Shown one piece after another: positions 4,591 to 29,573 of a stretch of DNA of 35,382 bases. This DNA comes from an uncultured Anaeromyxobacter sp. (lineage in GTDB: Bacteria; Myxococcota; Myxococcia; Myxococcales; Anaeromyxobacteraceae). The notes beneath the pieces were generated by a model. The model searched no databases and was not told the DNA's origin. It was given only the letters and a program-made list of their open reading frames with translations. Numbering within the stretch: position 1 is the first letter of the stretch; each line of letters begins with the position of its first letter. A program made the position numbers and the translations under genes. The stretch lies in contig CAIQRS010000225.1 of assembly GCA_903874275.1 (NCBI GenBank), positions 1 through 35,382 of the forward strand. Direction: 5' to 3'.

Positions 4591-7500
4591 GTGCACGTGG
4601 CCGAAGGCGCCGGGGATGGCAGCGGAGGAGCGACGGGCTTGAAGCCCGGCGCGCTGACCGCGCTCCTCCAGGAGGTCGCGGCCAGTCCCGAGCAGCGCGA
4701 GGCCGAACCGGAATCACTCCCGCCCGGGACGGTCATTGGGCGGTTCGAGATCATTCGCGAACTGGGGCGAGGCGGCTTCGGTGTCGTCTACGAGGCCAAG
4801 GACCGGGACCTCGGCCGGCAGGTGGCGGTGAAGGTCGTCCGGCCGGGACGCATCGTCGAGGAGGAAGGAAAGGTCACCCGCGAGGCCGAGGCAATCTCGC
4901 GGCTCCTGCATCCCAACCTCATCACGCTCTTTGACGTCGGGACAAGCGACGCAGGGCCATATCTCGTCTTCGAGCTGCTCCGCGGGAAGACGCTCGATCT
5001 CCGGATCGAGGAAGGGCCGCTTCCAGTCCAGGAGGCGGTGCACATCGCGACCGAGGTGACTCGAGGCCTCGCCCACGCGCACGCCGAGGGAGTGATCCAC
5101 CGGGATCTCAAGCCCGCCAACGTGTTCGTCACGAACAAGGGGCAGGTGAAGATCCTCGACTTCGGGATGGCGCACGCCTTCGGGCGCAGGCGTCTCTCCG
5201 GCGGGACGCCCGCCTACATGGCGCCGGAGCAGTGGGAGGACGAGCCCGAGGACGAGCGGACCGACGTCTTCGCGCTCGGCGTGATGCTCTACCGGATGCT
5301 CACCGGGGAGTACCCGTTCCCGGAAGGGAGGGGGAGGTGGTCGGCGGAAGCGGCGACGGTCCCGAAGCTGGACGTGCCCGGGGCGCCGGAGCTCCCGGGA
5401 CTGGTCGGGAAGATGCTGGATCGGGCGACCAAGGCGCGGCCTCGCGATGGCGCCGCTGTGCTGGCCGCGCTCCAGCCCATCGAGGACGCGCTCCGGGCGA
5501 AGCCGGCCGATGGCGCGCCTCCTGTTCACGCGAAGCGGCGGAAGGCGACGTTCGGCGATCTCCTCGCGGAGCTGAGGCGGCGACACGTCTTCCGGGTGAT
5601 GATTGGCTACGGCGTCTTCGCCTTCGCCGTGCTCCAGGTCACCGAGCCGATCATGCACGGCGCGGACCTCCCGAACTGGGTCCTCAAGGCCGTCCTCGTC
5701 GCCCTGGTCGTGGGCTTCCCGGTCGCGGTGATCCTTGCCTGGGTCTACGACCTGACCGCGCAGGGCGTGAGGCGGACGCCGTCCACTACGGACCCCGGTG
5801 CTCCCCGCTTCGGCAGGTCCCGGTTCCTGCTGCCGCTCGCAGTCGCCGCCGTGGTCCTCGCCATCGCCACGGTCGGAGCGGGCGGCTGGTACGCCTGGAA
5901 GGGAGCGAGTGGCGGAAGGCAGCCCGGGGCATCGGTTCCTGTCGCCGGCCCGGACGGCCGCATCATGGTGGCCGTCGCCGATTTCGTGAACGACACGAAG
6001 GACCCGGACCTCGACGGGCTTTCCAGCCAGCTCATCACCTCGCTGGAGCAGTCCCAGAAGCTCCGGGTGCTGACCCGCTCCCGCATGGTGGACGTCCTCC
6101 GGCAACTCGGAAAGGCGACCGTCCCGGTCGTGGACGAGGTGATGGGAAGGGAGATGGCGCGCGCCGCCGGGGTCCAGGCGCTGGTGGTCGCAAGCATCCG
6201 CCGCTTCGACCAGCTCTACGCCATCGACCTGAAGGTTCTCGACCCCGGCACGAGCGAGTACTTCTTCACGCTGAAGGAGGAGCGGGAGGGGAAGGCGGCG
6301 ATCCCGGGGATGCTCGATCGGCTCTCCGAGAGGACGCGAGAGAAGCTTCGAGAGACGCCTGCCCAGGTGAGCGCCTCGAGGGTCAGCGTCGCCGAAGCGA
6401 CCACGCGCAGCTACGAGGCCTGGCAGCTCTACTTCGAGGGGACGAAGCTGGAGGACGCGCTCAAGTACGAGGGCGCCCTCGCCCTGTACCGCAAGGCCGT
6501 CGAGGCTGACCCGCACTTCGCCATCGCCTGGTACCGGATCGCCTACCTGGGTGCGTTCGCCTGGTGGTTCCCGCTTGAAGAGCGGGTGGCGGCGATGGAC
6601 GCAGCCATCCGGGAGATCGACCGCGTCCCGGCGAAGGAGCGGATGCTCTTCCGGGCCTGGAAGGCCCACATGGAGAAGCGCTCGGAGGAGGCCCACGCCC
6701 TCTACTCCCAGGCGGCCGAGGCCTACCCCGAGGACAAGGACGTCCTCTATCTGGCCGGTGGCCTCTACTTCCTCGAGCGACGGTATGCGGAGGCGCTGGC
6801 GTGGTTCGAGAAGGCGCTGGCGCTCGACCCCGCATGGCCCGAGGCCCTGGGAGACTTCGTCGCCACGCTCTCCGCCCTCGGGCGCGGCGAGGAAGCCGTG
6901 ACCGTTGCCCGGGGCTGGGTGGAGAAGGCCCCTGGCACGCCGTCCCGGGTCGCGCTCGCCGATGCGCTCGGCAGCGTGGGTCGTCGCGAGGAGGCGGTGG
7001 AAGTGGCCCGCAGGATCGCCGCAGAGGACCCGGGGATGAACTGGTTCCTCGCAGCCAAGATGATCTGGGCCGATCACTTCGAGGAGGCGACCAATCTGCT
7101 TCGCCCACTCGCCAGGGTAGGGAACCCCTACCGGGCCAACAATGCCGGGGCCCTCCTTCTTTCGCTCACCTACCAGGGCCGCATCCGTGAGGCACTCAAG
7201 GTGGTCGAGGATCACGAAGGGCATCCAGGGACTGCTTCGTGGTTCGGACTGGGCATGGGATGGAACGTCCTCGCTGCCGGGCGGAACTACCCGGCCGCGC
7301 TGCGGAAGGCCCTCGCGCTGGACGAGGCGGACATCCGCCGCGGACAACCGGGAAGCCAGTTCACCAACTGGTATCTCAAAGTCGGGCAGGACGGCGAAGC
7401 CGCCAAGGCTGCCGAGCGCATCACCAATCCAAAGGGGCAAAGGTTGTACGAAGCGCTCCTGGCGTGGCGGCGCAAGGACTTCAAGACCGCGCTCGAGGGA

Positions 7501-7830
7501 CTGCGGACTCTCGACCAGGTCCCGACCACGAACCCGTGGGTCGTCTGGTGGCACGCGTACGTCGCGCGCGACGCCGGGGAGGACGCCGAGGCCGTCGCCG
7601 CGACCGACCGATTCGAGGTCGTGAGGGGGGGCAATCCCGCTACCGGAGGAGAGATGGCCGAGCTCCTCTATCGCAAGGCCCAGTCCCAGGAGCGGCTCGG
7701 CGATACCGCCGGCGCGCGGGCCACCATCGAGCGCCTTCTCCGCTGGTGGAAGCGGGCCGACCCCGACCTTCCGCTCCTCGCCGAGGCGAAGGGCCTCTGC
7801 CGGAACCTCGGGTGCACGGCGCCGAAGTGA
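4591..7830 (+). CDS. Transmembrane Ser/Thr protein kinase with TPR domain
   Basis: A 1079-residue protein. Residues 50-300 are a Hanks-type kinase with all key motifs: glycine loop GRGGFGVVYEAKD (59-71), Lys81 in VAVKVV, HRDLKPAN (170-177), DFG (190-192) and APEQ (211-214). The next section, starting with ELRRRHVFRV, has two hydrophobic helices (about 334-352 and 363-384), and a third lies at 411-433. This places the kinase in the cytoplasm and the rest probably outside. Residues of roughly 450-590 resemble the FlgO-like or TolB-like domain that precedes TPRs in such proteins. TPR-type repeats fill the C-terminal half. The start is a GTG at 4591 with a G-rich stretch just upstream. Targets are unknown. 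The antisense strand is also open over almost the whole length, a GC-rich artefact. Confidence 0.9.
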   Translation: MHVAEGAGDGSGGATGLKPGALTALLQEVAASPEQREAEPESLPPGTVIGRFEIIRELGRGGFGVVYEAKDRDLGRQVAVKVVRPGRIVEEEGKVTREAEAISRLLHPNLITLFDVGTSDAGPYLVFELLRGKTLDLRIEEGPLPVQEAVHIATEVTRGLAHAHAEGVIHRDLKPANVFVTNKGQVKILDFGMAHAFGRRRLSGGTPAYMAPEQWEDEPEDERTDVFALGVMLYRMLTGEYPFPEGRGRWSAEAATVPKLDVPGAPELPGLVGKMLDRATKARPRDGAAVLAALQPIEDALRAKPADGAPPVHAKRRKATFGDLLAELRRRHVFRVMIGYGVFAFAVLQVTEPIMHGADLPNWVLKAVLVALVVGFPVAVILAWVYDLTAQGVRRTPSTTDPGAPRFGRSRFLLPLAVAAVVLAIATVGAGGWYAWKGASGGRQPGASVPVAGPDGRIMVAVADFVNDTKDPDLDGLSSQLITSLEQSQKLRVLTRSRMVDVLRQLGKATVPVVDEVMGREMARAAGVQALVVASIRRFDQLYAIDLKVLDPGTSEYFFTLKEEREGKAAIPGMLDRLSERTREKLRETPAQVSASRVSVAEATTRSYEAWQLYFEGTKLEDALKYEGALALYRKAVEADPHFAIAWYRIAYLGAFAWWFPLEERVAAMDAAIREIDRVPAKERMLFRAWKAHMEKRSEEAHALYSQAAEAYPEDKDVLYLAGGLYFLERRYAEALAWFEKALALDPAWPEALGDFVATLSALGRGEEAVTVARGWVEKAPGTPSRVALADALGSVGRREEAVEVARRIAAEDPGMNWFLAAKMIWADHFEEATNLLRPLARVGNPYRANNAGALLLSLTYQGRIREALKVVEDHEGHPGTASWFGLGMGWNVLAAGRNYPAALRKALALDEADIRRGQPGSQFTNWYLKVGQDGEAAKAAERITNPKGQRLYEALLAWRRKDFKTALEGLRTLDQVPTTNPWVVWWHAYVARDAGEDAEAVAATDRFEVVRGGNPATGGEMAELLYRKAQSQERLGDTAGARATIERLLRWWKRADPDLPLLAEAKGLCRNLGCTAPK

Positions 7831-8699
7831 CTCGAAGCGAGGAGCACTGCCCAAACACTGCCCAACGGGTGACCGGAGCGGCTCTCCCGGCAGTGTCAGC
7901 AGCGGTCACATCCCGTCGCCAGGTACCTGGAATGACTGCTCCTGACCACGAGGAGCGGTCAGCCGCATTCACTCTCGGGCGACCCCGGCTTGCGCTTCAG
8001 GACATCCCCCCAAGAATCTTGATGCCCGGGGGCGGGGGGGGTCGATCTGAAGAGGCCGGGGGGTGTTCCCCGGCTCGGTCTCGGAGGCGGGAGTTCGGGA
8101 ACCAGTTCCCTATCTCGCCGGAGATCCCTGTACCGGGGGACCGATTGGCCGATCAATAGTCTCGACGTTGAGAAAGTTGCTGGCCCAGGTCTTGGATGCG
8201 GTCTCGGCAGGTGGCGACCCGCATCGGGGATGCCCTCCAGACAATCCTGGCTGCCCCTGAATCGCGCGCTTGGTGCAGGACCACCCAGACCCACCCCCCT
8301 TGCTGGCGAATCGCTCCTGAGGCCGCTCCAGGATCCCCAGAACCAAATCTGACGGGTGGGGGGTGGTGCCGGGGATCGGATTCAAGAGGCCGGCGGGGGT
8401 GGCGGACCTGGAGATGATCTTCCCCACCGGCGTGGCCCTCCCCTTCCTGGCACCGGTGACACCGGTGACGAGGGCGGAATGGGAACCTGGGGAGGGAAAA
8501 GAAGATCTGCCGAGGCGGTCTGACTCATCGCGCACGAGAGCGACATGCCCTTCTCAGTGATGGTCTACGGCAAGGAGCCCAGCAGGTAGGAGCGGGTGGG
8601 ATCTTTCCCAGGACCCCAAAGATTCTCAACAACCACTGTGGGGGTGGGGCCTAGGTCGATCAGATCGCTCCAAGCCCTAAGCGCTGGCGACGCGAATGG
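7831..8699. other. Long gap with decayed repeats
   Basis: About 870 bases without a credible gene. It contains repeat copy 2 (8233-8344), a second pair of loosely similar stretches (about 8040-8065 and 8375-8405, both with AAGAGGCCGG) and a tandem of CACCGGTGA at about 8453-8470. At 8589-8606 a sequence resembles parts of the tRNA-Gly attachment core. It appears to be decayed mobile DNA at the left edge of island A. Confidence 0.5.
8233..8344 (+). repeat. Degenerate dispersed repeat, copy 2
   Basis: Partner of 4295-4406, same orientation and same length. The surrounding sequence is not conserved between the two copies. Confidence 0.5.
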
Positions 8700-9557
8700 T
8701 CAGCCGACGATTCGGATCGGAACGGGGTGCCCAAGCAAACCCGAGGTTCCAGCAACCTGGACCTTGCGCTCCCGGACGGCGGTCAAGCAGGCCATCTCGG
8801 ACTGAAGGCGGCGCTCAAGATCCCGCCGGTAACGAACCAGGAGCGTCGCCTGCTTCCCTTCGGGGAGTGGAACGGTCGCTGCCAGGGCCTTCGTCGCCTT
8901 CTCGGCAGCCTCCTTGGCAGGGCCTACCTGCGCAGCAACTGCCGCGGCGCATTCCTCCGCACGGGCCACCACCTCACGATACGCATCGCTTTCGATCTCA
9001 TCGACGGAGCGAATCCCGACTCTGCTCATTGCCCTGGCAAGGGCCTCGGACCCCAGAACACAGCCAGGCTTCTCTGCCTCGACAGCCCGGACCATCTCGA
9101 CGACGGTCATGACGGCGTCTCTTAGCGGCTCGAGGTTGTACTCACCCTCCAGGTTTGGATGGGCCACGACCTCAGCCATCACCTTCGTTGCCTGAGCAAC
9201 GCGAGCGACCATTTGTGAGAAGTGATGTTCGGGAAGGTCTTCTGCCTGCGCCAGGGCCTCGGCCCGCGTTCGGTTCATCTCGATCGCATCGAGGCGCTGC
9301 ATTCGCCAGCGGATGTCGGCTACTGCCATCACGAGTTCCAGCTCGGCCTCATCGGAGGGGAGCAGCGATTCGACCCAGATCCGCGTGTGCTCCACGTATT
9401 GCGCCGGGTCTTCATGTGGCAGGACCACCCGCTCGGAACGAAGACCATGGACCACGCCATTGGTCGAAACCCTCGCCTTGCCGGATGGCGTAGTGGGCCC
9501 AATGGAGATGGCTCCATTGCGTCGAGATGCCTCCTGCTGGTCCGGAGTCCGCTTCAT
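8700..9557 (-). CDS. Conserved hypothetical protein, island gene
   Basis: A 285-residue, mostly helical protein. The N-terminus is basic with the pattern RRNGA, then GPTTPSGKARVSTNGVVHG. This pattern (R-N-G/A...G-P-x-T-x-x-G-K-x-x-x-x-x-N...H-G-L) is common in short proteins of unknown function found in many high-GC soil bacteria, often near mobile DNA. The middle and C-terminal parts are Ala/Glu-rich helices without catalytic motifs. The ATG at 9557 has only a weak AAGAGAA upstream. The 83-residue gene lies 21 bp upstream on the same strand, so the two are probably co-transcribed and divergent from the gene at 10055. Function unknown. Confidence 0.75.
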   Translation of the reverse strand: MKRTPDQQEASRRNGAISIGPTTPSGKARVSTNGVVHGLRSERVVLPHEDPAQYVEHTRIWVESLLPSDEAELELVMAVADIRWRMQRLDAIEMNRTRAEALAQAEDLPEHHFSQMVARVAQATKVMAEVVAHPNLEGEYNLEPLRDAVMTVVEMVRAVEAEKPGCVLGSEALARAMSRVGIRSVDEIESDAYREVVARAEECAAAVAAQVGPAKEAAEKATKALAATVPLPEGKQATLLVRYRRDLERRLQSEMACLTAVRERKVQVAGTSGLLGHPVPIRIVG

Positions 9558-9578
9558 GTTTCTCTTGCGCTCAGGTGG

Positions 9579-9830
9579 CTATCCGTTCCGCCCTGGTTCT
9601 TGGGGGAAGCGCCCGTCGAGAGCCACGAAGTAGGCGACGATGCCTTCCCCGGCCCTGGCGTGCCGGTCAGCTGCCTTCTGCTCCTCGAGTCGTTCCGGCG
9701 AAAGCGGCTTGGGCGGGGAAGGGACGAATGGACGGCCAGTCAGCAACTCGATGTTTCGCCACATCGTCTCGGGCGTGAAGATTCCCTCTGGCGTGAAGGC
9801 GGACCTCCTATCGCCGGTTGAGTCGCTCAT
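9579..9830 (-). CDS. Small hypothetical protein
   Basis: An 83-residue protein starting MSDSTGDRRSAFTPEGIF. The ATG at 9830 has a good ribosome binding site (AAGGGAG, 7 bases upstream), so the longer in-frame extension to 10160 is rejected. The product contains ETMWRNIELLTGRPF, then a Pro-rich segment and an acidic/basic helix. No family was recognised. It is the first gene of a two-gene unit with the 285-residue protein and is read divergently from the gene at 10055. Confidence 0.7.
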   Translation of the reverse strand: MSDSTGDRRSAFTPEGIFTPETMWRNIELLTGRPFVPSPPKPLSPERLEEQKAADRHARAGEGIVAYFVALDGRFPQEPGRNG

Positions 9831-9849
9831 CGTTGGCTCCCTTGTGGTT

Positions 9850-9861
9850 GAGACTGGTCTC
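9850..9861. promoter_or_regulatory. Operator-like palindrome in divergent gap
   Basis: GAGACTGGTCTC, perfect 5-bp arms around TG, lying 20 bp upstream of the 83-residue gene in a 224-bp divergent intergenic region. It may bind a repressor; this is an inference from symmetry and position. Confidence 0.35.
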
Positions 9862-9891
9862 CATTCGGCCAGCAGTTCGTGCCTGTGGGAA

Positions 9892-9910
9892 GGAGAACCA
9901 TTCGTTCTCC
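9892..9910. promoter_or_regulatory. Second inverted repeat in divergent gap
   Basis: GGAGAAC and GTTCTCC (7-bp perfect arms) around a 5-base spacer. It lies in the same divergent region as the palindrome at 9850. It could be a regulator-binding site controlling island genes in both directions. Confidence 0.4.
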
Positions 9911-10054
9911 AACATGGTGTTGCGGCCGGTCGAAGACGCTTTGGGGACGGTGGTCCCGCCTGGCCCACCAGCTCGCCCTCGAGGAGGGTTTGGGCATCCG
10001 GGGCCGTGGGGGAGCCTTCCTCGGCGATATCCGGACACCTGCTATCGTTGGCAG

Positions 10055-10885
10055 ATGAAGCCGCTCTCCCCGTTCCCCCCACCAGAACGCTACAGGAGTC
10101 GGATCGTCCGCATGCGGGCCGTCGTGACGGGGCCAAATGGCTTTCTGGCTTCCGACACAATCGATACCGAGTTCGTCGTCATAGATCGCGCTGCCCCCTA
10201 CGTTGTACTGGGTGTACCGCCCGCCGCCGAAGGGGTGTGGGACGGCCTTGAGCCCGACTACCTTGGGCAGGACCCCGACGGTTGGTACTGGTTTGCCCCG
10301 GGGATGGGCGGTATCCGCAAGCGACTCGCGGACATTGGAGTGACGAAGGAGGAGTGGGAAGCACTCCCCCGCCGTGACCGTGGGAAGGTCCTGAAAGGCG
10401 CCCTCACGATCGGGTACGCGGAGGGCGCACTTCGCGACATCGTGAAGCGACGCAACCCTTCTGTCGTAGCCAAGGCAGAGAAGTATCTTGGCCTGATGGT
10501 GGCCCACACCGTGGACGCTCGTAAGGCTCCGCGTGGGCTTTCCACTGAACGTCGCCGCCCAAAGGCATTCCGCCTCGCCAAGCGCCTCCTACCTATTCTC
10601 GCCGTCGAACTCGATCGAGTTCGACAGGAGGGCCTTGCACTCCGTCGGTCACCATTTGAGAGCGAGACCTGGGCCCGATCCAAGGCTGACGAGATCAATC
10701 AGCGGACAGTGGCGCTTGGACTGGGAGAACCGTGCTCCGCAAGAGACATTGCAGAGCTAAAGGCAGGAGTGCCGAACGTGATGGCCAAGACGATTGCCAG
10801 CAGAGCTACCGGAGTGGGTGCCGATTCACTCCGCTACAGCCAGGCAAGAACTCGCGCCAAGGGCGCGCCCAGGGTGAAGCGATAG
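10055..10885 (+). CDS. Hypothetical protein upstream of replicase
   Basis: A 276-residue protein starting MKPLSPFPPPERY. The frame is open upstream to 9818, but the extension lies in the regulatory gap and reads as non-coding, so the ATG at 10055 was chosen; an ATG at 10112 is also possible. The N-terminal third has acidic and aromatic residues (GQDPDGWYWFAPGMGG), the centre has a segment with EEWEALPRRDRGKVL, and the C-terminal half is very basic. It could be a nucleic-acid-binding protein. No family was recognised. It precedes the replicase by 111 bp in the same direction, so it may work with it. Confidence 0.6.
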   Translation: MKPLSPFPPPERYRSRIVRMRAVVTGPNGFLASDTIDTEFVVIDRAAPYVVLGVPPAAEGVWDGLEPDYLGQDPDGWYWFAPGMGGIRKRLADIGVTKEEWEALPRRDRGKVLKGALTIGYAEGALRDIVKRRNPSVVAKAEKYLGLMVAHTVDARKAPRGLSTERRRPKAFRLAKRLLPILAVELDRVRQEGLALRRSPFESETWARSKADEINQRTVALGLGEPCSARDIAELKAGVPNVMAKTIASRATGVGADSLRYSQARTRAKGAPRVKR

Positions 10886-10996
10886 CGTAGGCGCATTCTC
10901 CGAACTCAGCCCATATCGGGCAGCACCCGGCATAACTAGGCTCCGAGAAACAACGACCCCGCGCCATTGGAGTGGCCGGGGCCTCGGAGACCGGTC

Positions 10997-13900
10997 TTGC
11001 CGAACCAGCCTCACGACGATCATACCCTCGACCGTTTGGGCGCAGCAACCCTGCTCCCTCATCACCGGGAGCATTTGGCCCGGAGCGGCCTGAGCGACGC
11101 CACCATCGAGGCCGCGAACCTCTTCTCAGTCACGGACAGCGGCCAGGCCCGGGAGTTGCTCAACTGGCGGAACGGTGGGGACGGCCCGCCGGTCCCAGCG
11201 ATTGCGTTCCCGTACTGGGTTCCGGAAGGATACGCGCGGCTTCGGCCGGACCAGCCTCGGACAGACAAGGACGGCAGGCCGACGAAGTACGAGGCCCCCT
11301 TGGGGCAACCGCCTCGGCTTTACGTTCCCTGGGACTGCTTCCCCGATCAAGGCGGCCGCGAGACCGAACTCCTCCTAACTGAGGGCGAAAAGAAGGCTCT
11401 GGCCGGATGCCAGGCCGGGATTCCGACGGTGGCGGGAGGCGGGATCTTCGGCTTTCACGACGCGACCGCAAGGCAAGCCGCGAAGGCTCGGGGCGAGGAC
11501 ATCTGGCCGCCGTTGCCGGAGTTGGTTCAAATCGTGAGTTCTCGCGACCCAACCATCGCCTTCGACTCGGACATAGACGAAAACTCAGAAGTCATGCGTG
11601 CGGCCACGGTTCTTGCGCGCATGCTCCATGGTGTTGCAAGGTCCTCCCGGATCACTTTCCTCCCGTCCCCGGGGGGAAAGAAGGTCGGCCTGGATGATCT
11701 CTTCGTCGCTTGCCACGGGAACCCAGCGCGCTTCCGGGAAGAACTCTTCGCCGCCCGGAGGCCGGCGGAGCCACACGACCTTCTCGAGTGGACCGCAGGC
11801 AAGTTGTCCACCTGGAGCGCATCCCAACGGGCCCTGGAGCTCCGGCGGGCCATGGCGTTTTGCCTGCACCTGCTACCCCGGGAGCAATTCGCAGCTTGGA
11901 GAGCGCGTGCGTCGGAGCGATTGGGCGTCGGTAAGAACGCCCTGAAGGAGGTCGAGCGTTCGATCCGGGCGCAGATGGCCCAGCACCCGCAGCAAGATCC
12001 CTCGTGGCTGACCGCTCCCGGCTACACCGTCTCGGCCCAAGGGGAAAGCACGGGTGTCTGGTGGAAAGGATCGCAAGGAGAGAACGCGACCCTGGTCGCC
12101 GTTGCGCCCATCAACGTCTACGAGGTCGGCACGGATGAAGACGGGGTGCAGCACGTTGGAGTGAAGTGGCGTTACGGCCAGGACACACAGTCCGTCCTGG
12201 TCCCTCGCCTACACATCGCGGGCCCGGACCTACTACAACTCGCTGCTCGCGGCGCACCCGTAACCCTTGCCAACCGCGGCCGCCTCCAGGATTTCCTCGC
12301 CCGTCAGGAACAGGTGAACCTCGACAGGATTCCGCGCATCCGCGTGTTCAACAGGTTCGGGTGGTCAAAGGACCTTCACCACTTCGCGTTGGGGCGGTTT
12401 GTCGTTGGCGAGGGAGGCGGGCGAGCAATAGCCGAAGCCGACGAGCAGTTCCTCGACGCCCTGCGCCCGAGTGGTGACATCGCCATCTACAAACATATTT
12501 GCCGCGAAGTCATTGCTGCGTCGCACGCGGCCGAGGCAGGGTGGGCCGTTGGCTACGCCCCTCCGCTTCTTCGATTACTGGGGCACCGGAGCTTTCTATT
12601 GTCGTTCTGGGGCCCGTCCCACGGAGGCAAGTCGGCCGACCAGGCACTCGCCGTGTCAACGTTTGGGCGGCCGGAGGGGCTGAAGCTCACCGGCGACGCT
12701 ACGCCCACTGCGGTCGAGGCAAACTTGAGTCGTTGCAACGACATTACCTCCTGGGTCGACGACACGCAGCAGACGCGGAGCCGCGCGTTGCTCGACGGGC
12801 TCGCATACCAGGTGGGCGGGGGCACGGGCCGAGCTCGAGGAACCGTTACGGGGGGGCTTTGCCGCATCGCGAACTGGACGTCCATCGGCTTTGTCAGCGG
12901 CGAGCACCCCCTGCTCAAGATAAACGCGGCAGCGGGCGCCAGGAATCGCACACTGGAACTGCAAGTCGTGCCTATGACAAGAGCCCTGGCGGCCGACGTT
13001 CACGTGACGCTCCGTCAACACCACGGGCTGACCGGACCTGCCTTCGTCGAGGAACTGCTCCATCGGTTTATCATCCCAGGCAAGCTCGACGAGCTCGACG
13101 ACCTTTACCGCTCGTTCGTCACCCAGCTCTCTCCGGAGCCGGGTGATCAGCCGGGCCTCTATGTCGCGCTCATAGCGCTTGCGGACTTTCTCGCCCGGAT
13201 ATGGGTCCTCGGCGATGAGGAACACTCTGCGCGAACTGCCGCTGTTTCGATGGGGCGTGCGCTCATCGGGATGTCCCGTTCCCAGCGAGACACGGCTGTC
13301 GATTCGGTGGATGCCGGGTACGAAGCGATCGTTGCTTGGGTCGTCGAGAACGACGCACTCTTCCATCCCGAACCGGATGTCACAGCCGAACGGCCACTTC
13401 GCGGCCCTCTAAAGCGCCTGGGCCTCTACATCGACGCCTCCGATGCGGATGGGCGGCGGGTCGTCGCGATCTTGGGCGAACCCCTTCGCGAGGCCATGGA
13501 GAAGGCCGGGTTCAACTTCCAGGAACTTCTCCACGGCCTCCTCGAGCGCGGGCTGCTCGTCCCGGGCGAAGAGAGTGGGCCGAAGGGACCTCGCCTCGGC
13601 AGGAAGACGATGATCGGTCGGGACCGGGCGCGCGCCTACTGGGTCGTCCTGCCCGAGGATGGACCTGATGGTGATGTCCCAGGGGGCCGCCCGTTCCGGC
13701 GCGGGAATATGGGACACGGAAATGGCCCGCAAGATCCACATCTTGGCGTGATTTGTCCCACCGTCCCGGACGTCCCGCCGGTAGAGACTTCCATGGAGGT
13801 GCAGTTCAACTCTGAAGAAGAGACGCCCACCAGAGTGTTCACGATCGGAACCACCGGGACAGTGGGACTTTTAACTCTATATCCAGAAGAAATAGAAGAA

Positions 13901-15814
13901 AGAATAGGTGCTTACGTGGGCCCGCCCCCTGTCCCACCAGGTGTCCCACTTGCTGTCCCGGTGGGACACCAACCTGACGACTATGGCCGGGGATACGAGC
14001 TGGTCACGACCCCAGAGGCCGCGGAGCAGGCTTGCGCCAGGCGCGCCACCGACACCACCCTCTACGTGGGCATCTGTACATTTCCAGTAGCCGCCCCCTC
14101 CGGTGCCCCCGTCCTCTCTCACGTGGGGTCCGGGTGTTCACAACGCCGGGTTCGGAAGCCGAAGAAAGATGACTCGCGGGTATCTCCCCACAACCCTGGC
14201 CTGACCACCATCCGCCTCGTCATGGTGCTCGGCTCGGACGGTATCGTCAGGGCTTTCGACGTCCTCGCCCTCCAGGGCGTCCCGGACGCCCTGCGACGCC
14301 TGCTGACCAATGACCAGGTCATCTGGGTTGGCTTCGAGATGCTGGCCATCGCCCGGGCCCTGAGAAGGCACCACGGACTCGAGGTCCAGGACCCGGTCGA
14401 CCTCCGGTTCGGAGCTGTTCTGGCCGACGGATCTGCCAAGCTCAAGGACCCCACGGCGTACACGCTCTCGACCGAAGTGGCTCGCCACCTTGGACAAGTC
14501 CTTCCATCGGAACCGCCGGCATCGACCTGGGGTGAGCCCGTCCTGCCCCACGCGCAGTTGGTCGCCGCCGCTCGATCCGTTGCTGTCCTGCCGGCTTTGC
14601 GCCAGCGCGTTGCCGCGGAGGTCGAGCGAGCTGGGGTGGGGGTCACCTGGTGGCTCGAGAATCAGGCCATCCCGGCCACGGTGTCGATGGAGGCGGTCGG
14701 CTTCCGTGTGGACCGGGAGAAGCTCGAGCGCCTCGAGGCTGATGCCCGTGCCGAAATGAACGCCTCGCAGGAGCGCGCCCTGGATGCGCTTGGCGACCCG
14801 ACGCTCAAGTTGACCAACGACGCCGAAGTGAAGCAGCGGGTCGAGAGGGTCTACGGGATCACGCTTGCAGATGCCAAGTTCGTGACTCTGGAGGCAGCGG
14901 CTCCGCAGGCCCAGGCGCTTTACGACGTCGTGAAGTTCAAGCGCGCCAAGTATCGGATGGATTGGGCGAGAATCATCATCGACGCCATCCAGCCCGACGG
15001 CAGGGTTCACCCTACGTTCGATTTGCTGGGCACGGTCGCTGGTCGATTAAACTGCGACAAACCGCCGATGCTGAATCTCCCCAAGGGAGACGAGTTTCGA
15101 GCTTGCTTCATCACCGATCCCGGAGAGGTTCTCGGGGTCGCTGACTACTCGATGGCGCAGGTCCGGATCGTCGCCGATCACACGCAGGACCCGGAGATGC
15201 TGCGGTGTCTACGAGCCGTCCCCGAGATCTGCCTTCACAAGCGAACCAGCGCAGCCATGCTAGGCAAGCCAATTGAACAGGTAACTCCGGGTGAACGGCA
15301 ACTGGGAAAGCCGGTGGTCTTCGGTGTCACGTATGGGCAACAACCCAGGGGCCTCATGAAGAGCGCACTCGACTTCAGAGTGACCTTTACGCTTGAGGAG
15401 GCAACGGCATTCAGGAACACCTTCCTGGAGACCTACAGCGGTATCCAGGCGTGGCACGAGCACCTGGCACGCCTGACCGTCCATACGAGGGAAGTCCGGA
15501 GCGTGAGCGGCCGGCTTCGAGCTCTGAAAGACCATGAAGCTCGGGTGAGCGTGTTTGCGGCGTCGTTCGCTCAAGGGAGCGAGGCCGACATCTTGAAGCT
15601 CGCCCTGCCGTCACTGCACCGCAAGCTGAAGCCACTCGGAGGAAGCATCCGCACCGTTTTTCATGACGCAGTTGTCGTTGGGGGGACGAGCGAGAACGCT
15701 GAAGCGATCAAGGCCGTTCTGGTCGAGTGCATGCAGGAGGCCATGTCGTTCTTCGTGAAGTCGGTGCCCGCGAAGGTCGATGCGTACATCTCCAACTCCT
15801 GGGCGAAGCCATGA
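10997..15814 (+). CDS. Fused TOPRIM-DUF927-family A DNA polymerase replicase
   Basis: A 1605-residue replication protein. Residues 1-260 look like a DUF3854/TOPRIM primase-type part, with TEGEKKA (128-134) and FDSD (189-192). Residues 350-700 match the DUF927 helicase-like ATPase, with Walker A GPSHGGKS (539-546) and acidic SWVDDTQQ (585-592). A low-complexity linker (about 890-1030) follows. Residues 1040-1210 look like a 3'-5' exonuclease fold without its acidic residues. Residues 1210-1605 are a family A polymerase: motif A DYSMAQVR (1383-1390), motif B with Arg1434, Lys1438, Phe1442 and Tyr1446, and motif C HDA (1556-1558) where most have HDE. A TTG at 10997 was chosen because CGGAGA lies 6 bases upstream; a TTG at 10967 is in frame. 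It probably replicates the excised island. Confidence 0.85.
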   Translation: MPNQPHDDHTLDRLGAATLLPHHREHLARSGLSDATIEAANLFSVTDSGQARELLNWRNGGDGPPVPAIAFPYWVPEGYARLRPDQPRTDKDGRPTKYEAPLGQPPRLYVPWDCFPDQGGRETELLLTEGEKKALAGCQAGIPTVAGGGIFGFHDATARQAAKARGEDIWPPLPELVQIVSSRDPTIAFDSDIDENSEVMRAATVLARMLHGVARSSRITFLPSPGGKKVGLDDLFVACHGNPARFREELFAARRPAEPHDLLEWTAGKLSTWSASQRALELRRAMAFCLHLLPREQFAAWRARASERLGVGKNALKEVERSIRAQMAQHPQQDPSWLTAPGYTVSAQGESTGVWWKGSQGENATLVAVAPINVYEVGTDEDGVQHVGVKWRYGQDTQSVLVPRLHIAGPDLLQLAARGAPVTLANRGRLQDFLARQEQVNLDRIPRIRVFNRFGWSKDLHHFALGRFVVGEGGGRAIAEADEQFLDALRPSGDIAIYKHICREVIAASHAAEAGWAVGYAPPLLRLLGHRSFLLSFWGPSHGGKSADQALAVSTFGRPEGLKLTGDATPTAVEANLSRCNDITSWVDDTQQTRSRALLDGLAYQVGGGTGRARGTVTGGLCRIANWTSIGFVSGEHPLLKINAAAGARNRTLELQVVPMTRALAADVHVTLRQHHGLTGPAFVEELLHRFIIPGKLDELDDLYRSFVTQLSPEPGDQPGLYVALIALADFLARIWVLGDEEHSARTAAVSMGRALIGMSRSQRDTAVDSVDAGYEAIVAWVVENDALFHPEPDVTAERPLRGPLKRLGLYIDASDADGRRVVAILGEPLREAMEKAGFNFQELLHGLLERGLLVPGEESGPKGPRLGRKTMIGRDRARAYWVVLPEDGPDGDVPGGRPFRRGNMGHGNGPQDPHLGVICPTVPDVPPVETSMEVQFNSEEETPTRVFTIGTTGTVGLLTLYPEEIEERIGAYVGPPPVPPGVPLAVPVGHQPDDYGRGYELVTTPEAAEQACARRATDTTLYVGICTFPVAAPSGAPVLSHVGSGCSQRRVRKPKKDDSRVSPHNPGLTTIRLVMVLGSDGIVRAFDVLALQGVPDALRRLLTNDQVIWVGFEMLAIARALRRHHGLEVQDPVDLRFGAVLADGSAKLKDPTAYTLSTEVARHLGQVLPSEPPASTWGEPVLPHAQLVAAARSVAVLPALRQRVAAEVERAGVGVTWWLENQAIPATVSMEAVGFRVDREKLERLEADARAEMNASQERALDALGDPTLKLTNDAEVKQRVERVYGITLADAKFVTLEAAAPQAQALYDVVKFKRAKYRMDWARIIIDAIQPDGRVHPTFDLLGTVAGRLNCDKPPMLNLPKGDEFRACFITDPGEVLGVADYSMAQVRIVADHTQDPEMLRCLRAVPEICLHKRTSAAMLGKPIEQVTPGERQLGKPVVFGVTYGQQPRGLMKSALDFRVTFTLEEATAFRNTFLETYSGIQAWHEHLARLTVHTREVRSVSGRLRALKDHEARVSVFAASFAQGSEADILKLALPSLHRKLKPLGGSIRTVFHDAVVVGGTSENAEAIKAVLVECMQEAMSFFVKSVPAKVDAYISNSWAKP
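13675..13968. repeat. TGTCCCA repeat cluster with AT-rich patch; possible origin
   Basis: Inside the linker-coding part of the replicase gene, TGTCCC or its complement occurs at 13675, 13711, 13754, 13863 (as TGGGAC), 13930, 13942 and 13954. The last is part of a hairpin-like palindrome TGTCCCGGTGGGACA (13954-13968). An AT-rich, purine-rich stretch (about 13868-13910) breaks an otherwise GC-rich gene. Iteron-type repeats beside an AT-rich segment are the usual form of plasmid and phage origins, and some phage origins lie inside the initiator gene. That this is an origin is an inference. Confidence 0.45.
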
Positions 15815-15864
15815 CCGGCGTGAAGCAAGCGGCGCCGGCCCAGGCGCGGGGCGACTCACCGTGA
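15811..15864 (+). CDS. 17-residue coupling mini-frame
   Basis: MTGVKQAAPAQARGDSP. Its ATG overlaps the replicase stop (ATGA at 15811-15814), and its stop overlaps the GTG of the next gene (GTGA at 15861-15864). This arrangement would let ribosomes pass from the replicase to the excisionase-like gene. The peptide itself is probably not functional. It could be a chance frame. Confidence 0.35.
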   Translation: MTGVKQAAPAQARGDSP

Positions 15865-16241
15865 GCGAATACATGGGACTCGCCACGATTCTCGAGGGCA
15901 CCATCCGGGAGATCGTTCGGCAGGAACTGAAGGCCGTGATGGCTGATGGCCGGCAGCCTCGGGCAGATGAGCCCCTGCGAGGTCGCTGGCTCACCCCGCC
16001 GGCGGCCGCTAGACAGGTCGGCATTCCGGAGAAGGCGGTCCGGGCCATGATCAAGGAGAGGCTCATCCCGCATCGGCTCCGCAACATCAACCCGAACCCT
16101 CGCCAGCCCAAGTACATCGTCGATGTCGATGCCGTCGCAGCCGAGGCGGCGCGTGTCAGCAGGGTCGTGCATAACGATCAGATGCCAGAAGGCGTCACAG
16201 CTCGAGCGGCACGGATTCGCGCCAAGACAGAGGGGAGGTAG
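15861..16241 (+). CDS. Excisionase-like DNA-binding protein
   Basis: A 126-residue protein. The N-terminal third is helical; residues of about 45-100 hold a winged-helix segment of the excisionase/MerR kind (WLTPPAAARQVGIPEKAVRA, then a basic wing and KYIVDVDAV). Excisionases bend the attachment site and direct integrases to excise. It lies between the replicase and integrase 1, with integrase 1 starting 4 bp downstream, so all are probably one transcript. The start was taken as the GTG at 15861; an ATG at 15873 is a close alternative. It may also act as a repressor of the integrase. Confidence 0.7.
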   Translation: MSEYMGLATILEGTIREIVRQELKAVMADGRQPRADEPLRGRWLTPPAAARQVGIPEKAVRAMIKERLIPHRLRNINPNPRQPKYIVDVDAVAAEAARVSRVVHNDQMPEGVTARAARIRAKTEGR

Positions 16242-16245
16242 GTCG

Positions 16246-17547
16246 ATGGGCGCTGTCTACCGTCGAAAGGGTAGTCGCTACGTGTGGCTCAAATGGTTCG
16301 ACGCGCTTGGCCACGAGCAGCGGCGGTCCAGCGAGACCGAGAACGAGGCCGAGGCTCGTTCCATTCTGGCCGAGATAGAACGGCAGGAAGAAGAGAAGGC
16401 TCCACGGGTCGCACTGGGCGCTCTCACGGTGGAACGCTGGTTCGATGAGGTCTGGCTCCCGCTCCGGCAGCGAACGAGGCCGTGGCAGTGGAAGAGCGAC
16501 CGGGCCGGGATGCGGACCCACTTCTTTCCGAAGTTCGGTGGTCACGCCCTTGCGAGTCTCGCCACGGACGCCGGTGAGGTGGAGCTACTCAAGTGGCTCG
16601 AAGGGCTTCGGGAGCACAAGTCGCGACGAGACGGTACGCCGCTTGCCTCGCGTACTCAGAGGAACGTGGCGAGCGTGGTCCGCATGTTCTTCGCGGACGC
16701 CAGGCAACGAAAGGTGATCGCCCGCAACCCCACTGTGGACTGGGCGAGAAACCTCCCAACAATCGAGGACAAGGAGCGAGGGTGGCGAGCGCAGGCCGGC
16801 TTCACGCTGGAGCAGGTCGTCACAGTCACGACGGACGAGCGCGTCCCTGAGGATCGCCGTGTCCTCTACACACTGCGCTTCCTGGGTGGCCTACGGCCTG
16901 GGGAGGCTGCCAACGCCAGGTGGCGGGAACTCAACCGAAGCAAGCGACCGTTGTGGCGGCTCGCCCTGGAGTCCTCGTTCAACAGTCCGACGCAGCGAGA
17001 GAAGAGTACGAAGACTGGGGCCGAGCTAAACATCCCGGTGCATCCAGTTTTGCAGGGGGCCCTTGAGAGGTGGGAGGCCCAGGGGTGGGAGGTGTTCATG
17101 GGGCGGAAGCCGGAGCCAACCGACTTCATCTTCCCCCGGGGAGACGGCCAGCAACGGCGCGTCAGTGCCACGTACAAGCAGTTCAAGGCCGACCTCGCCA
17201 TGGTCGGCATCCCGGCGCAACGGCAGTACGAGTCACGCTCGACGTTCCGAAACCTGGCCCTCAGCGCCGGCGCCAATGAGTTCCACCTGAACCTCATCAC
17301 CCACCCGAAGCCGAAGCGGGCATCTGACCACTACACACGGCTGGAGATGCAGTGGTCGGGCATGTGCGCGGCGGTGCTCGCCATCGACCCGGCAGCCTGG
17401 CCGGGGTCCCCGGCCGCTGTAACCCAAGACGAGGTTACAGTCGGGGTTACAGGCCAAGGGACAACCAATGATAAACCCCCGACAACCTTGACGATTGTCG
17501 GGGGCGAACTGGAGCGGGAAAAGGGATTTGAAGGGTCTACACGGTGA
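16246..17547 (+). CDS. Tyrosine integrase 1 of island A
   Basis: A 433-residue site-specific recombinase. After an N-terminal arm-binding and core-binding part (about 1-180), the catalytic part shows Arg217 (GLRPGE), Lys256, Arg331, His353 and the nucleophile Tyr363 (DHYTR). The usual HxxR box reads YESR (328-331), so the first histidine is a tyrosine. The ATG at 16246 has GGGAGG 8 bases upstream. The C-terminal tail extends about 50 residues past the catalytic fold, and its last codons (LEREKGFEGSTR) are written by the tRNA-derived attachment core at 17510-17532. It is predicted to integrate island A at the tRNA-Gly 3' end. Confidence 0.88.
   Translation: MGAVYRRKGSRYVWLKWFDALGHEQRRSSETENEAEARSILAEIERQEEEKAPRVALGALTVERWFDEVWLPLRQRTRPWQWKSDRAGMRTHFFPKFGGHALASLATDAGEVELLKWLEGLREHKSRRDGTPLASRTQRNVASVVRMFFADARQRKVIARNPTVDWARNLPTIEDKERGWRAQAGFTLEQVVTVTTDERVPEDRRVLYTLRFLGGLRPGEAANARWRELNRSKRPLWRLALESSFNSPTQREKSTKTGAELNIPVHPVLQGALERWEAQGWEVFMGRKPEPTDFIFPRGDGQQRRVSATYKQFKADLAMVGIPAQRQYESRSTFRNLALSAGANEFHLNLITHPKPKRASDHYTRLEMQWSGMCAAVLAIDPAAWPGSPAAVTQDEVTVGVTGQGTTNDKPPTTLTIVGGELEREKGFEGSTR
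17417..17452. repeat. GGTTACAG sites near right end of island A
   Basis: CTGTAACC (17417-17424), GGTTACAG (17433-17440) and GGTTACAG (17445-17452). The first two form an inverted pair and the last two are 12 bp apart. They lie about 60-90 bp from the attachment core, a usual place for integrase arm sites. They also fall inside the integrase coding tail. Confidence 0.4.
17476..17504 (-). terminator. Hairpin inside integrase 1, terminator-like on minus strand
   Basis: A perfect 10-bp stem (CCCCCGACAA with TTGTCGGGGG) around a 9-base loop. Read on the minus strand it is followed by TTTATCATT. Its place relative to the attachment core equals that of the terminator after the present tRNA-Gly, so it probably ended the tRNA transcript when island A was directly next to the tRNA. 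The same bases code for integrase residues. Confidence 0.55.
17510..17532 (-). repeat. Attachment core between islands A and B
   Basis: These 23 bases are identical to 29499-29521, the 3' part of tRNA-Gly from the CCA end into the T loop. Integration of an island into the tRNA 3' end leaves such a copy at the far end. Here it is the junction of island A (integrase 1) and island B (integrase 2). Confidence 0.88.
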
Positions 17548-17671
17548 GTGAATAACCCTATGCGGGACGCGCCGTTACCTCACAACTCGCCGGGACCCTT
17601 CGCCTTTCCCGTTCCATCGCCTTCCCTCCCGTACCGGCCCATCCCGCCCCGTGGTGCAGGGTCGGGGCACA
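17530..17671 (+). repeat. 142-bp direct repeat, copy 1
   Basis: It matches 21552-21693 without gaps at about 90% (some 14 differences). It begins in the last bases of the attachment core and probably represents the left end of an island, including integrase arm sites. It shows no coding content of its own. Confidence 0.85.
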
Positions 17672-17682
17672 GGTGGGGCACA
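17664..17682 (+). repeat. Paired GGGGCACA sites, left end of island B
   Basis: Two GGGGCACA copies 11 bp apart (17664 and 17675), one helical turn. The same pair, with the same 11-bp step, lies at 29434-29452 beside the other attachment core. They are good candidates for integrase 2 arm sites. Confidence 0.55.
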
Positions 17683-17707
17683 GATGCAAAGTCCAAGCGT
17701 GCAGTCC

Positions 17708-19978
17708 CTAAGTCCCGACCCGTACCTGTGTGCGTACCGGGAGGTCCACCGACGCCCAACCAGCCGTGATCATCGCGGCGACGACTTCATTGTAGACGGG
17801 GCCCTGATTCTCGGGGTCCCGGAGCGTGATCAGGAGCGCGATACGCTGAGGCGCCGTCGTCACGAACTCGGCCCGATGATGGATTGACACCCGCAGCCTC
17901 CACTCGCTGCCGCTCACACCACGCGGGATCCGCCGACGGTAGACCTTTACCGGAGACCACTTGAATCCGTGCTCGACAAGGTGCTTCTCGTACAAGAGGT
18001 TAACGTCCCTCGGCTCCGGCGGGATCTGTCGGTGATGGTGCGGCTTGCCGTCATCTCCGATGTCGTATGTGCCAAGCGACACGTCGACATTTGTGCGGCA
18101 GTACTCTGCGCCGAAGCTGGGATCCAGCGGAGGATCGTAAACCAGAGTGATGATGAACTCGCCCCTCACCTCACCGTTAGCCGTCCGGAACGCAGCGGGT
18201 ATTGGGAACTCGCGCTTCTCAAACTCATATCCACTGATGAGCTCTGGCTCAAAGACCAGGGTTGCGGACCACGGATCGCACGTGAGGACCCGGCTTATGT
18301 CGCCAGGAATCCCAAACCCGCGGTATCGCATCTCGTCCACTTTCACTGGCTGTGACCCAAGCATCGCCGAATGGACGACCAGCGCCTTTACCAGCGTCCG
18401 CGATACAGGTGGAGCCAAGATCCCGTCTACGTTCGCGAACAAGGTCGCGACAAGCGGCGATGCGAAGCTGGTGCCGATATTTTCGGCGACGTTTCCCTTC
18501 CCATCGAATGAGAGCACTCCCGTCTGCGCGTACTGGCCTACATGGTCGCAGTTGCCGCCGTAGTGACTGAGTTCCGGCTTGGGAATGAAGACGGGACCAG
18601 GTCCCCGGCGCGAAAACGGCGACGGCTGTTCATTCTGCACGCGCGAGTTCGGGCGGTGGATATGCGCGGTGCTCGCGACCGTTGCGCCCCGTACGGAGTC
18701 CGCTGGCGCGCAGATCCGGTCCGCTTCGCCCAGTGTTCCGCCTGGAGGCCAGCCTCGAAACGGCGGGACCACGTAGTTCCCGGCCGCCAGCACGAAGGTA
18801 ACGTTATACCGGTCCTGCAGGTCATCGAGCTTGATGGCCAAGTCCGAGAATCCGATATCCGTGCACGGCAACGTTGTTGCAAGTGAGAGATTCCAGATGC
18901 GTACGTCTGGATGTTTCGGCAAGACCTCGTCAAGAATCGCGACCAGTTCGTCTTCTGAGATCTTCCCGCTTTTCGGCACCGCCATCACGTCGACGATTTT
19001 CGACGACACCCCTGGAAACCGAGGGTCATCCTGGTTGAGCCGCCTCGCGTGGACCAAGAGCCCGCCTACAAAGCTGCCGTGATCGTGATCTCGGTCGCCC
19101 GGAGGCACGTATACGTGCTTCGCAACGATCCAGGGAGCGAGAGCCTGGTCCCCGGGGGGGATACCCGAGTCGACAATGCCTACAGTGGGGTAATCCACGC
19201 CCGCCTGCGGGGGTGGAAACTCGTCCCCGAGCGCAGCACGGACAGGAAGGGACGCCGTTCTGACTATTCGATAGGTTGGAAAGTCCGACAAGCTCTGTGC
19301 CCCGACGAAGCGGGAAAGCTCTTCCAACTTGCCTGACTGGATCCCCTTCACGCGGTAGACCGTAACGCCCCGTCCGTAGTCCAACGCGTCAACGCGAGAC
19401 GGTCGTACATTTTCGAGGAGGCGGGCAAGTGCCTCGTCAACTGCCTGATTGAGCGCGGCTCGCCCGTGCCTGAAGAGTTTTAACTTCACCCCACGATCGC
19501 CTTGTGCAGCCCTGCGAAGTTCATCCAGTCGACTTGAACCCAGGACGTCTGCCTCTGTGAAGGGCTCGATCCGCTCGATGGTGGAAAGGTTTGCTACGGT
19601 CGTCTTGGAGTCATCTTCAAGGATTCGGTCGAGGAGATGCCGAATTCGGTGGGGTTGAACCGTGATCAGAAGTTCGCCGAAATTCCGAACACCCATGATG
19701 GGACACGTGTTCTCATTGAGTAGCGCCGACGGGCGGTGTGACTTGGCCAGTGCGTCGTCCTTGAGAATCACTCGGGCGACCGCCGGGATGTCGGGGGCTC
19801 CGTCGAACGCCGGGGAGAAGTACGTCTGGACCTTGAGAAGTTGCTTCTTGAGGCTTACTCGTGTCTGCATCGACACCGAGCCAAATACCTTACGGGGCCC
19901 GTAGCTAGCATCCGGTCGCCGAAGGTCCTTCTCGCTCGTGAGAACCACCTTCAGAGGAAGTCGATTCTCGCCAGTCAA
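17708..19978 (-). CDS. ietS: IetS subtilase, defence-system protease
   Basis: A 756-residue serine protease of the subtilisin (S8) family. The triad is visible: Asp270 (VGIVDSG), His300 (DHDHGSF) and Ser504 (GTSFASP), with oxyanion Asn401 (AAGN). A 250-residue N-terminal extension precedes the protease and a beta-rich C-terminal part follows. There is no signal peptide, so it acts in the cytoplasm. Its ATG overlaps the stop of the AAA ATPase gene by 4 bases (19975-19978), so the two are translationally coupled. Such AAA ATPase-subtilase pairs are known as ietAS, first described as a plasmid toxin-antitoxin-like locus and later shown to protect against phage. How the protease is switched on is not clear. 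The pair assignment rests on domain content and order. Confidence 0.88.
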   Translation of the reverse strand: MTGENRLPLKVVLTSEKDLRRPDASYGPRKVFGSVSMQTRVSLKKQLLKVQTYFSPAFDGAPDIPAVARVILKDDALAKSHRPSALLNENTCPIMGVRNFGELLITVQPHRIRHLLDRILEDDSKTTVANLSTIERIEPFTEADVLGSSRLDELRRAAQGDRGVKLKLFRHGRAALNQAVDEALARLLENVRPSRVDALDYGRGVTVYRVKGIQSGKLEELSRFVGAQSLSDFPTYRIVRTASLPVRAALGDEFPPPQAGVDYPTVGIVDSGIPPGDQALAPWIVAKHVYVPPGDRDHDHGSFVGGLLVHARRLNQDDPRFPGVSSKIVDVMAVPKSGKISEDELVAILDEVLPKHPDVRIWNLSLATTLPCTDIGFSDLAIKLDDLQDRYNVTFVLAAGNYVVPPFRGWPPGGTLGEADRICAPADSVRGATVASTAHIHRPNSRVQNEQPSPFSRRGPGPVFIPKPELSHYGGNCDHVGQYAQTGVLSFDGKGNVAENIGTSFASPLVATLFANVDGILAPPVSRTLVKALVVHSAMLGSQPVKVDEMRYRGFGIPGDISRVLTCDPWSATLVFEPELISGYEFEKREFPIPAAFRTANGEVRGEFIITLVYDPPLDPSFGAEYCRTNVDVSLGTYDIGDDGKPHHHRQIPPEPRDVNLLYEKHLVEHGFKWSPVKVYRRRIPRGVSGSEWRLRVSIHHRAEFVTTAPQRIALLITLRDPENQGPVYNEVVAAMITAGWASVDLPVRTQVRVGT

Positions 19979-21120: not shown

Positions 21121-21170
21121 TTCATGAACATAACAGCTACTTCGTGAACAGATCAATGTATTTATGAACA
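21121..21170 (-). promoter_or_regulatory. Triple-repeat operator and promoter of ietAS
   Basis: Three 10-bp repeats, TTCATGAACA (21121), TTCGTGAACA (21141) and TTTATGAACA (21161), are spaced exactly 20 bp apart, so all face the same side of the helix. The first contains the palindrome TTCATGAA and touches the ietA start codon. On the minus strand TTGATC, 18 bases, then TATGTT could be a -35/-10 pair that would start transcription about at the ATG, giving a leaderless message. The region is strikingly AT-rich. The repeats are seen; the promoter is inferred. Confidence 0.6.
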
Positions 21171-21548: not shown

Positions 21549-21551
21549 CAC

Positions 21552-21693
21552 GAAGGATCTACACGGTGGGTGAATAACCCTATGCGGGACGCGCCGTTAC
21601 CTCACAACTCACAGAGACCCCTCGCCTTTCCCATTCCATCGCCTTCCTTCCCGCTCCGGCCCATCCCGCCCCGTGGTGCACCGTCGGTGCACA
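21552..21693 (+). repeat. 142-bp direct repeat, copy 2
   Basis: Partner of 17530-17671 with equal length and about 90% identity. It truncates vsr on its left and is followed by the end of the membrane-protein gene on its right, just as copy 1 is followed by the end of ietS. Unlike copy 1 it has no intact tRNA-derived core in front. Confidence 0.85.
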
Positions 21694-21707
21694 TAGACGC
21701 TGATAGG

Positions 21708-22775: not shown

Positions 22776-22808
22776 GGCGAGCGCACCTGTTTGCTGGGTG
22801 AAGACCCT

Positions 22809-27040: not shown

Positions 27041-27091
27041 CCGATGTAAGGCGGCTGGGATTAGCGCCGCCGGTGTTTGCCGACCCCCTTC

Positions 27092-27189: not shown

Positions 27190-27249
27190 AACCACGTTTT
27201 TCGATGACACGGCGAGCGAACCCTGCCCTGGGGGGTGCCCTCCGGCGAG

Positions 27250-29463: not shown

Positions 29464-29465
29464 AA

Positions 29466-29498: not shown

Positions 29499-29573
29499 TG
29501 GAGCGGGAAAAGGGATTTGAACCCTCGACCCTCGCCTTGGCAAGGCGATGCTCTACCGCTGAGCTATTCCCGC
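29499..29573 (-). tRNA. tRNA-Gly (GCC)
   Basis: A 75-base cloverleaf with the CCA end encoded. The acceptor GCGGGAA pairs with TTCCCGC; D-arm TAGCTCAGCGGTAGAGC; anticodon loop CTTGCCAAG with anticodon GCC; T-arm GGGTTCAAATCCC. It reads glycine codons GGC/GGU. It lies 48 bp downstream of pgsA on the same strand. Its 3' 23 bases (29499-29521) form the attachment core shared with 17510-17532. Confidence 0.97.

Follow-up and report, generated by a model that had tools for sequence, protein, structure and literature searches.

A single open reading frame of an uncultured Anaeromyxobacter probably contains a complete replicon, in the order primase, helicase, origin and polymerase (pri-rep-ori-pol), and is carried by an integrative element inserting at tRNA-Gly. 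We base this reading on the protein domains, kept and lost catalytic residues, attachment (att) sites, iterons, AT-rich tract and fused relatives observed. The gene lies at 10997..15814 (+ strand) of the window, the whole stretch of 35,382 nucleotides analyzed; this stretch makes up the entire contig C225 in a genome of 5.07 Mb and 285 contigs. The open frame, the Pfam domains and a codon-position bias in every module identify the gene as a fused primase-helicase-polymerase replicase gene. If the DNA encoding the linker between helicase and polymerase is an origin, then initiator, primase, helicase, origin and polymerase reside in one gene, a very compact arrangement that might be transferred as one unit.

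The frame is open across 1605 codons from a TTG start at 10997, which has a Shine-Dalgarno-like GGAGA 7-8 nt on its 5' side; the list of open reading frames also permits a start at TTG 10967. A scan for sigma-70 promoters gave no match. GC3 is even over the replicase modules (0.74-0.79) and lies below that of two chromosomal-looking neighbor genes (0.88-0.92); the linker, whose peptide is rich in proline and charged residues, is the only segment of the gene showing a drop (0.61). Production of a free polymerase from an internal start was considered and rejected, as scanning the linker revealed no internal start preceded by a Shine-Dalgarno sequence. The initial annotation had described one 1605-residue frame joining a TOPRIM/DUF3854-like part, a DUF927 part and a family A polymerase, in the order primase-helicase-polymerase in cis and with xis and int as neighbors. 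The open frame, the Pfam matches and their positions, and the Pfam/PHROG matches to a Xis-like gene and then an integrase gene directly 3' bear out this description, and for the N-terminal parts there are matches to profiles of primase-like and helicase families. As proposed there, the likeliest reading remains a self-replicating integrative element, the replication itself being what we infer. The further idea of the initial annotation, that one chain could prime, unwind and copy the island almost unaided, is to be set against a polymerase that has lost its proofreading residues and carries unusual residues in its active site.

Pfam residue positions were converted to numbering from the start at 10997. 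The DUF3854 TOPRIM-like primase core (residues 124-238; 11366..11710, +) scores above the Pfam cut-off (E = 2.8e-10). It presents the TOPRIM catalytic glutamate (EGEKK, E129-G130) and DxD motif (FDSDID, D190-x-D192), both of which are kept in the alignment with L038, a DUF3854-VapE protein of the same family to which the wider primase module (residues 1-335) is 32% identical. As to a primase zinc-binding domain, profile search returned no zinc-finger family and residues 1-120 hold no cysteine cluster. The DUF927/Cch-type AAA+ helicase (residues 354-621; 12056..12859, +; Pfam E = 4.4e-28) contains Walker A (GPSHGGKS) and Walker B (WVDD) motifs, and its profile matches the solved structures of SaPI Rep (8tch, 6.5e-67) and SCCmec Cch (5dgk, 2.4e-47). 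Over residues 320-905, identity to the helicase in Prim-Pol-DUF927-HTH proteins from Myxococcus-family genomes is 39-42%. A Cch-type helix-turn-helix (HTH) is the predicted iteron reader (residues 773-887; 13313..13657, +). Its match to HTH_56 is below the cut-off in the window (0.0013) and reaches 5.9e-15 and 2.5e-16 in relatives, and the putative C-terminal HTH of the helicase module thus rests partly on relatives. Because the AlphaFold model of the N-terminal part is unusable (pLDDT 37), it was profiles and motifs that served to assign the primase and the helicase. Helicase patterns scanned against 84,980 genomes, a non-exhaustive search with two short motifs, matched only in Myxococcales. 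Since the primase and helicase modules each have differently combined relatives within the phylum, where the contigs compared include those of Myxococcus and Corallococcus, the chain is, judging from sequence, a mosaic.

The C-terminal part comprises a 3'-5' exonuclease-like domain (about residues 1021-1215; 14057..14641, +), recognized by its fold in the structural model, and a family A polymerase domain (residues 1216-1605; 14642..15811, +), assigned by Pfam (DNA_pol_A at residues 1304-1603, E = 1.1e-43), residue mapping and the model. The C-terminal location given in the initial annotation stands, with the N-terminal limit moved from residue 1040 to about residue 1020. With E. coli Pol I as reference, the exonuclease has lost its catalytic residues: the equivalents of E357, D424, Y497 and D501 are R, A, A and S. 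The polymerase keeps the metal-binding D705 and D882 as well as R668, R754, K758, F762 and Y766, whereas the sugar gate is changed (E710Q), as are N845 (N845A) and E883 (E883A). The AlphaFold model of residues 985-1605 has a pLDDT of 86.9 and a pTM of 0.87. By sequence, the closest solved polymerases are the apicoplast PREX polymerase (apPol) and then 8jrb, the structure of Aquifex pyrophilus Pol I; the same two are closest by fold. The window protein probably adds an exonuclease-dead, TOPRIM-linked relative to the PolA kind of apicoplast PREX and Aquificae, on a very long, tentatively placed tree branch (2.16). The three substitutions and this long branch suggest that the polymerase may be specialized or decaying; E710Q could conceivably loosen discrimination against ribonucleotides, although Q is nearly the same size as E. 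We also considered that the island PolA had replaced the host Pol I, and rejected this because the genome does have a chromosomal polA locus, interrupted where a contig ends. The split of this locus (contigs C156, position 9, and C83) makes the island PolA look like the only one of the genome.

The DNA encoding the helicase-polymerase linker looks like the replication origin of the element itself. This predicted origin (13675..13968, no strand assigned) is supported by a 7-mer cluster, the lowest-GC 50-mer and the mirrored-repeat maximum. Directly 3' of the helicase module, two sets of putative iterons flank an AT-rich tract (13868..13915, no strand assigned; 31% GC within a 64% GC region) that we predict to be the DNA-unwinding element. 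GGGAC-core iterons occur to its left at 13675(-), 13709(+), 13754(-), 13854(+) and 13862(+), and to its right at 13930(-), 13942(-), 13954(-) and 13961(+). The arrays start at residue 893, directly after the HTH domain, and the arms nearest the AT tract are mirrored (left, CCGGGACAGTGGGACT; right, TGTCCCACCAGGTGTCCCACTTGCTGTCCCGG).

Each of these features was compared with synonymous shuffles. A k-mer scan of the element found TGGGACA/TGTCCCA clustered in the linker-coding DNA, with six copies of TGGGACA in 300 nt, a density reached by 0/400 shuffles holding protein and codon usage constant; when a 200-nt window is used, the 7-mer cluster is reached by 10/200. The 50-mer at 13865 (32% GC) is the lowest of 7800-17530, the next having 48%, and none of 200 shuffles gave a GC content as low as that of the linker tract. 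The mirrored-repeat score has its maximum over 9.5 kb exactly at this tract, and no comparable AT/mirrored-repeat site was seen elsewhere in 8000-17550. Since the mirror score alone is marginal (8/150 shuffles reach it), the case for an origin depends on the mirrored repeats falling where the AT minimum falls, and on relatives showing the pattern again. As it was a scan that brought the signal to light, no single score gives it its strength, which comes from two coinciding features and this recurrence. Origin-like DNA inside the gene had been overlooked in the initial annotation. It would give the linker a function and, if true, would account for its weak coding signal. An origin inside a gene has a known parallel in phage lambda, where the origin lies within gene O. 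We read the linker as an origin because SaPI/PICI origins have the same layout: they adjoin the 3' side of rep, and in them an AT-rich region is flanked by two sets of iterons (PMC6092414, PMC7581432). In these systems, Rep and Cch2 read the iterons through their C-terminal domain (PMC6092414, PMC7581432).

From this arrangement we infer the following biochemical and replication steps, and a history. Xis and Int would excise the element as a circle. The Cch-type HTH of the helicase module would then bind the GGGAC iterons just 3' of its own coding DNA, and the AAA+ ring would open the AT-rich tract between the inverted iteron arrays and load there. Primers would be made by the TOPRIM module and extended on the element circle by the tethered PolA, which would act without proofreading. 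The linker peptide would be the in-frame translation of origin DNA: an ordinary primase-helicase gene, its 3' origin and a polA gene probably became one frame by reading through the origin. If true, this hints at how such fusions form, namely by translation through an origin placed between rep and pol.

Fused homologues with the same module order, as opposed to genes all split at the linker, were found in IMG/VR. A scan with the polymerase alignment retrieved five genes of 1469-1498 codons among the best matches, and a second scan with the N-terminal half brought the total to eight loci, 8/8 full length. These eight chains, of about 1461-1498 aa, have the order primase-AAA-exo-PolA, with an AEP primase (PrimPol). 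Pfam recognizes Prim-Pol and then the exonuclease and DNA_pol_A; the AAA-type segment between, which has a Walker-A-like GNREGCGKDT, gives no Pfam match. The contigs with one-chain PrimPol-AAA-exo-PolA proteins of about 1,460-1,500 aa (L120-L123, L125, L200-L207) come from uncultivated viruses and measure 23-83 kb. No full-length relative was found among cultured phages or plasmids or in 195 Myxococcota genomes, and no TOPRIM-fused relative in IMG/VR. Grouping of the window polymerase with the viral fused clade is neither supported nor rejected (p-AU 0.11).

In L120, L121, L122, L123, L125 and L206, the GC minimum falls together with the maximum of the mirrored-repeat score, within 2-8 residues, at the helicase-exonuclease joint. 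Examples of the linker arrays are GGGGACAT in L120 and L125, GTGGGACAT in L121, GGGGATGT in L123 and GGGAATCTC in L206. The mirror score is reached by 0 of 150 shuffles in L120, L121 and L125, by 2 in L206 and by 3 in L123, and is not significant in L122 (73/150); L120, L121, L123 and L125 are closely related and do not count as four independent cases. It seems fairly likely that we are dealing with a recurrent class of single-gene replicons, in which fused primase-helicase-PolA frames pass through their own origin. Carried by an integrative element and by uncultivated viruses, these replicons would have arisen or been maintained with more than one type of primase (TOPRIM, AEP) and of AAA+ helicase.

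A contrasting case is G183, a 1524-aa protein from another Myxococcota family (L080, 3223-7797), which has zinc-ribbon-like CxxC and AAA+ motifs, matches DUF927 weakly and includes a PolA of phage type; its linker shows no coincidence of AT minimum and mirrored repeats. An integrase gene lies nearby in L080. A single-origin clade for all fused PolAs was therefore rejected: G183, with its phage-type PolA and no linker origin, represents a separate fusion. Unfused PrimPol-DUF927-HTH relatives adjoin a tRNA or tmRNA gene in 6/7 loci, and in both loci where the downstream neighbor was scanned, a tyrosine integrase follows immediately. In five of the seven, an AT/mirrored-repeat site lies 70-250 bp upstream of the primase-helicase gene, and the position of the putative origin thus varies between lineages. 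In these five (L031, L032, L034, L035 and L036), mirrored CGGGGCA-type repeats flank the AT-rich tract, and on this pattern the sites are probable origins of their elements. We also observed what amounts to a split version of the same set in a 12.2-kb plasmid of Cyanobacterium aponinum (L048, 2706-7547), where 0 nt separate an AEP-DnaB helicase gene from the PolA gene directly after it, whose product groups near PREX.

Three other explanations deserve consideration. The fused protein may be a replicase while the linker repeats and AT tract reflect codon or peptide-linker composition, the origin lying elsewhere. The proline- and charge-rich linker peptide, the marginal mirror score and the upstream sites of the unfused Myxococcus-family relatives are in line with this, but synonymous shuffling reproduces neither the low GC content nor the TGGGACA cluster in 300 nt, the element offers no comparable site elsewhere, and viral fused genes with other linker peptides and iterons show this coincidence too. 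We consider this explanation unlikely. That the primase-helicase gene and the polA gene were joined by a recent accident, or only by faulty assembly, would agree with the lack of full-length relatives in 195 Myxococcota genomes. Given eight fused viral relatives of the same order, a second DUF927-like/PolA chain (G183) in another family, an even GC3 over the modules and the published Pyrovirus polyprotein, this explanation is highly improbable and already largely refuted.

Doubtful, although a shade more credible than a purely compositional linker, is the notion that the PolA part is a decaying or non-replicative appendage: primase and helicase would start replication, host Pol III would copy the element, and PolA would be inactive or limited to gap filling or primer extension. 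SaPI and related elements replicate with the host polymerase, a chromosomal polA seems present, and E710Q, N845A, E883A, the lost exonuclease site and the very long branch could all be signs of decay. Against such decay, the polymerase retains its two catalytic aspartates and its O-helix residues, the coding bias is intact, and a full fold is predicted at pLDDT 87.

Apicoplast PREX is a nuclear gene of apicomplexans, unlike the window gene, and its primase-helicase part is of another type. The two share primase, helicase, exonuclease and PolA in one chain (PMC6523293), and PREX provides the best polymerase match by both sequence and fold. Pyrovirus 3173 Pol (OS3173 Pol) is a one-chain DUF927-exo-PolA protein of 1,606 aa (PMC7689252, PMC10423840), nearly equal in length to the window chain and likewise carrying an N-terminal DUF927 helicase and a C-terminal family A polymerase. 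Its polymerase is of the Aquificae/apicoplast type, and the window PolA best matches apPol and Aquifex Pol, on a long branch. The Pyrovirus protein, however, belongs to a viral genome of Aquificae and not to an integrative element, has an active 3'-5' exonuclease where the window chain has lost the catalytic residues, and has no named TOPRIM module where the window chain has a DUF3854 TOPRIM-like one; the Pyrovirus origin has been placed in an intergenic region, and DUF927 is unfused in 2/4 species. Phage 1706 GP55 (PMC12205980) also unites primase, helicase and polymerase, but with an AEP primase and a family B polymerase whose exonuclease is active. With fusions already known from Pyrovirus 3173 Pol, PREX and GP55 (with PolB), the statement in the initial annotation that these functions are normally separate in mobile elements needs qualification.

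SaPI/PICI Pri-Rep-ori and SCCmec Cch/CcPol-MP resemble the window in having a related DUF927 helicase in an integrase-linked island (PMC7581432, PMC10061031, PMC6092414), SaPI/PICI also in the iteron/AT layout just 3' of the helicase part, and some SaPI/SCC-type elements likewise use an A-family polymerase. Their helicase and polymerase are in separate genes with the origin outside any frame, whereas the window has one gene with origin-like DNA in frame. CcPol keeps E710, as well as F762, and works with the MP protein; the window polymerase has E710Q and shares a chain with the helicase, no gene lying between. The Myxococcus/Corallococcus PrimPol-DUF927-HTH proteins (L031-L037) are similar in helicase and HTH (39-42% identity) and in their location beside a tyrosine integrase, mostly at a tRNA/tmRNA, but have an AEP primase in place of TOPRIM and no polymerase, and their mirrored-repeat site precedes the gene. 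In its domain architecture, the window chain is thus one more variant among the one-chain DUF927-PolA replicases already described; an origin written into the joint of such a replicase appears to be new.

The surroundings of the gene exhibit the features of a tRNA-associated integrative element: a tyrosine integrase, a Xis-like gene and direct att repeats at a tRNA 3' end. The Xis/MerR-like DNA-binding protein is encoded at 15780..16241 (+; HTH_17 0.00098, excise domain 0.03), its true start being probably about 15861, and the tyrosine integrase at 16246..17547 (+; open reading frame from 16123; Phage_integrase 0.00049, PHROG integrase 8.6e-23). A 22-nt att core where the integrase gene ends (17511..17532, +) marks the right end of the element and exactly repeats the 3' end of tRNA-Gly(GCC) (29499..29573, -; tRNA call and repeat), the attachment gene, where the second core lies at 29500-29521; 0 such exact repeats are expected by chance. 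Because this tRNA-Gly 3' end recurs at 17511-17532, two elements seem to be inserted in tandem. The left one (A), with replicase, Xis-like gene and tyrosine integrase, ends at 17511. Its left end was not found on the contig; it may lie between about 7.9 and 10 kb, as the Ser/Thr kinase-TPR gene at 4591-7830 has many paralogues in the genome and a GC3 of 0.88, unless this gene is cargo. No capsid or terminase gene was found among the part of the window ORFs scanned, the left end of the element lying outside the contig. The right element (B, 17511-29500) carries a subtilase (S8)-AAA ATPase pair, a Mrr-like nuclease, two C5 cytosine methylases and its own 623-aa integrase, and is probably a defence island. 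The chromosome to the right of tRNA-Gly is also found in three congeners.

Four more att cores, one with a mismatch, occur on contig C238 of the same genome (L103 8837, 11199 and 14502; L104 1183). The tandem array at tRNA-Gly seems longer than the window shows, and C238 may be the leftward continuation of C225. Positions 17530-17671 and 21552-21693 of the window form a direct repeat of 142 nt (91%), which is present on C238 as well, beside an att core; it is perhaps a shared element end, in which case element B may be composite.
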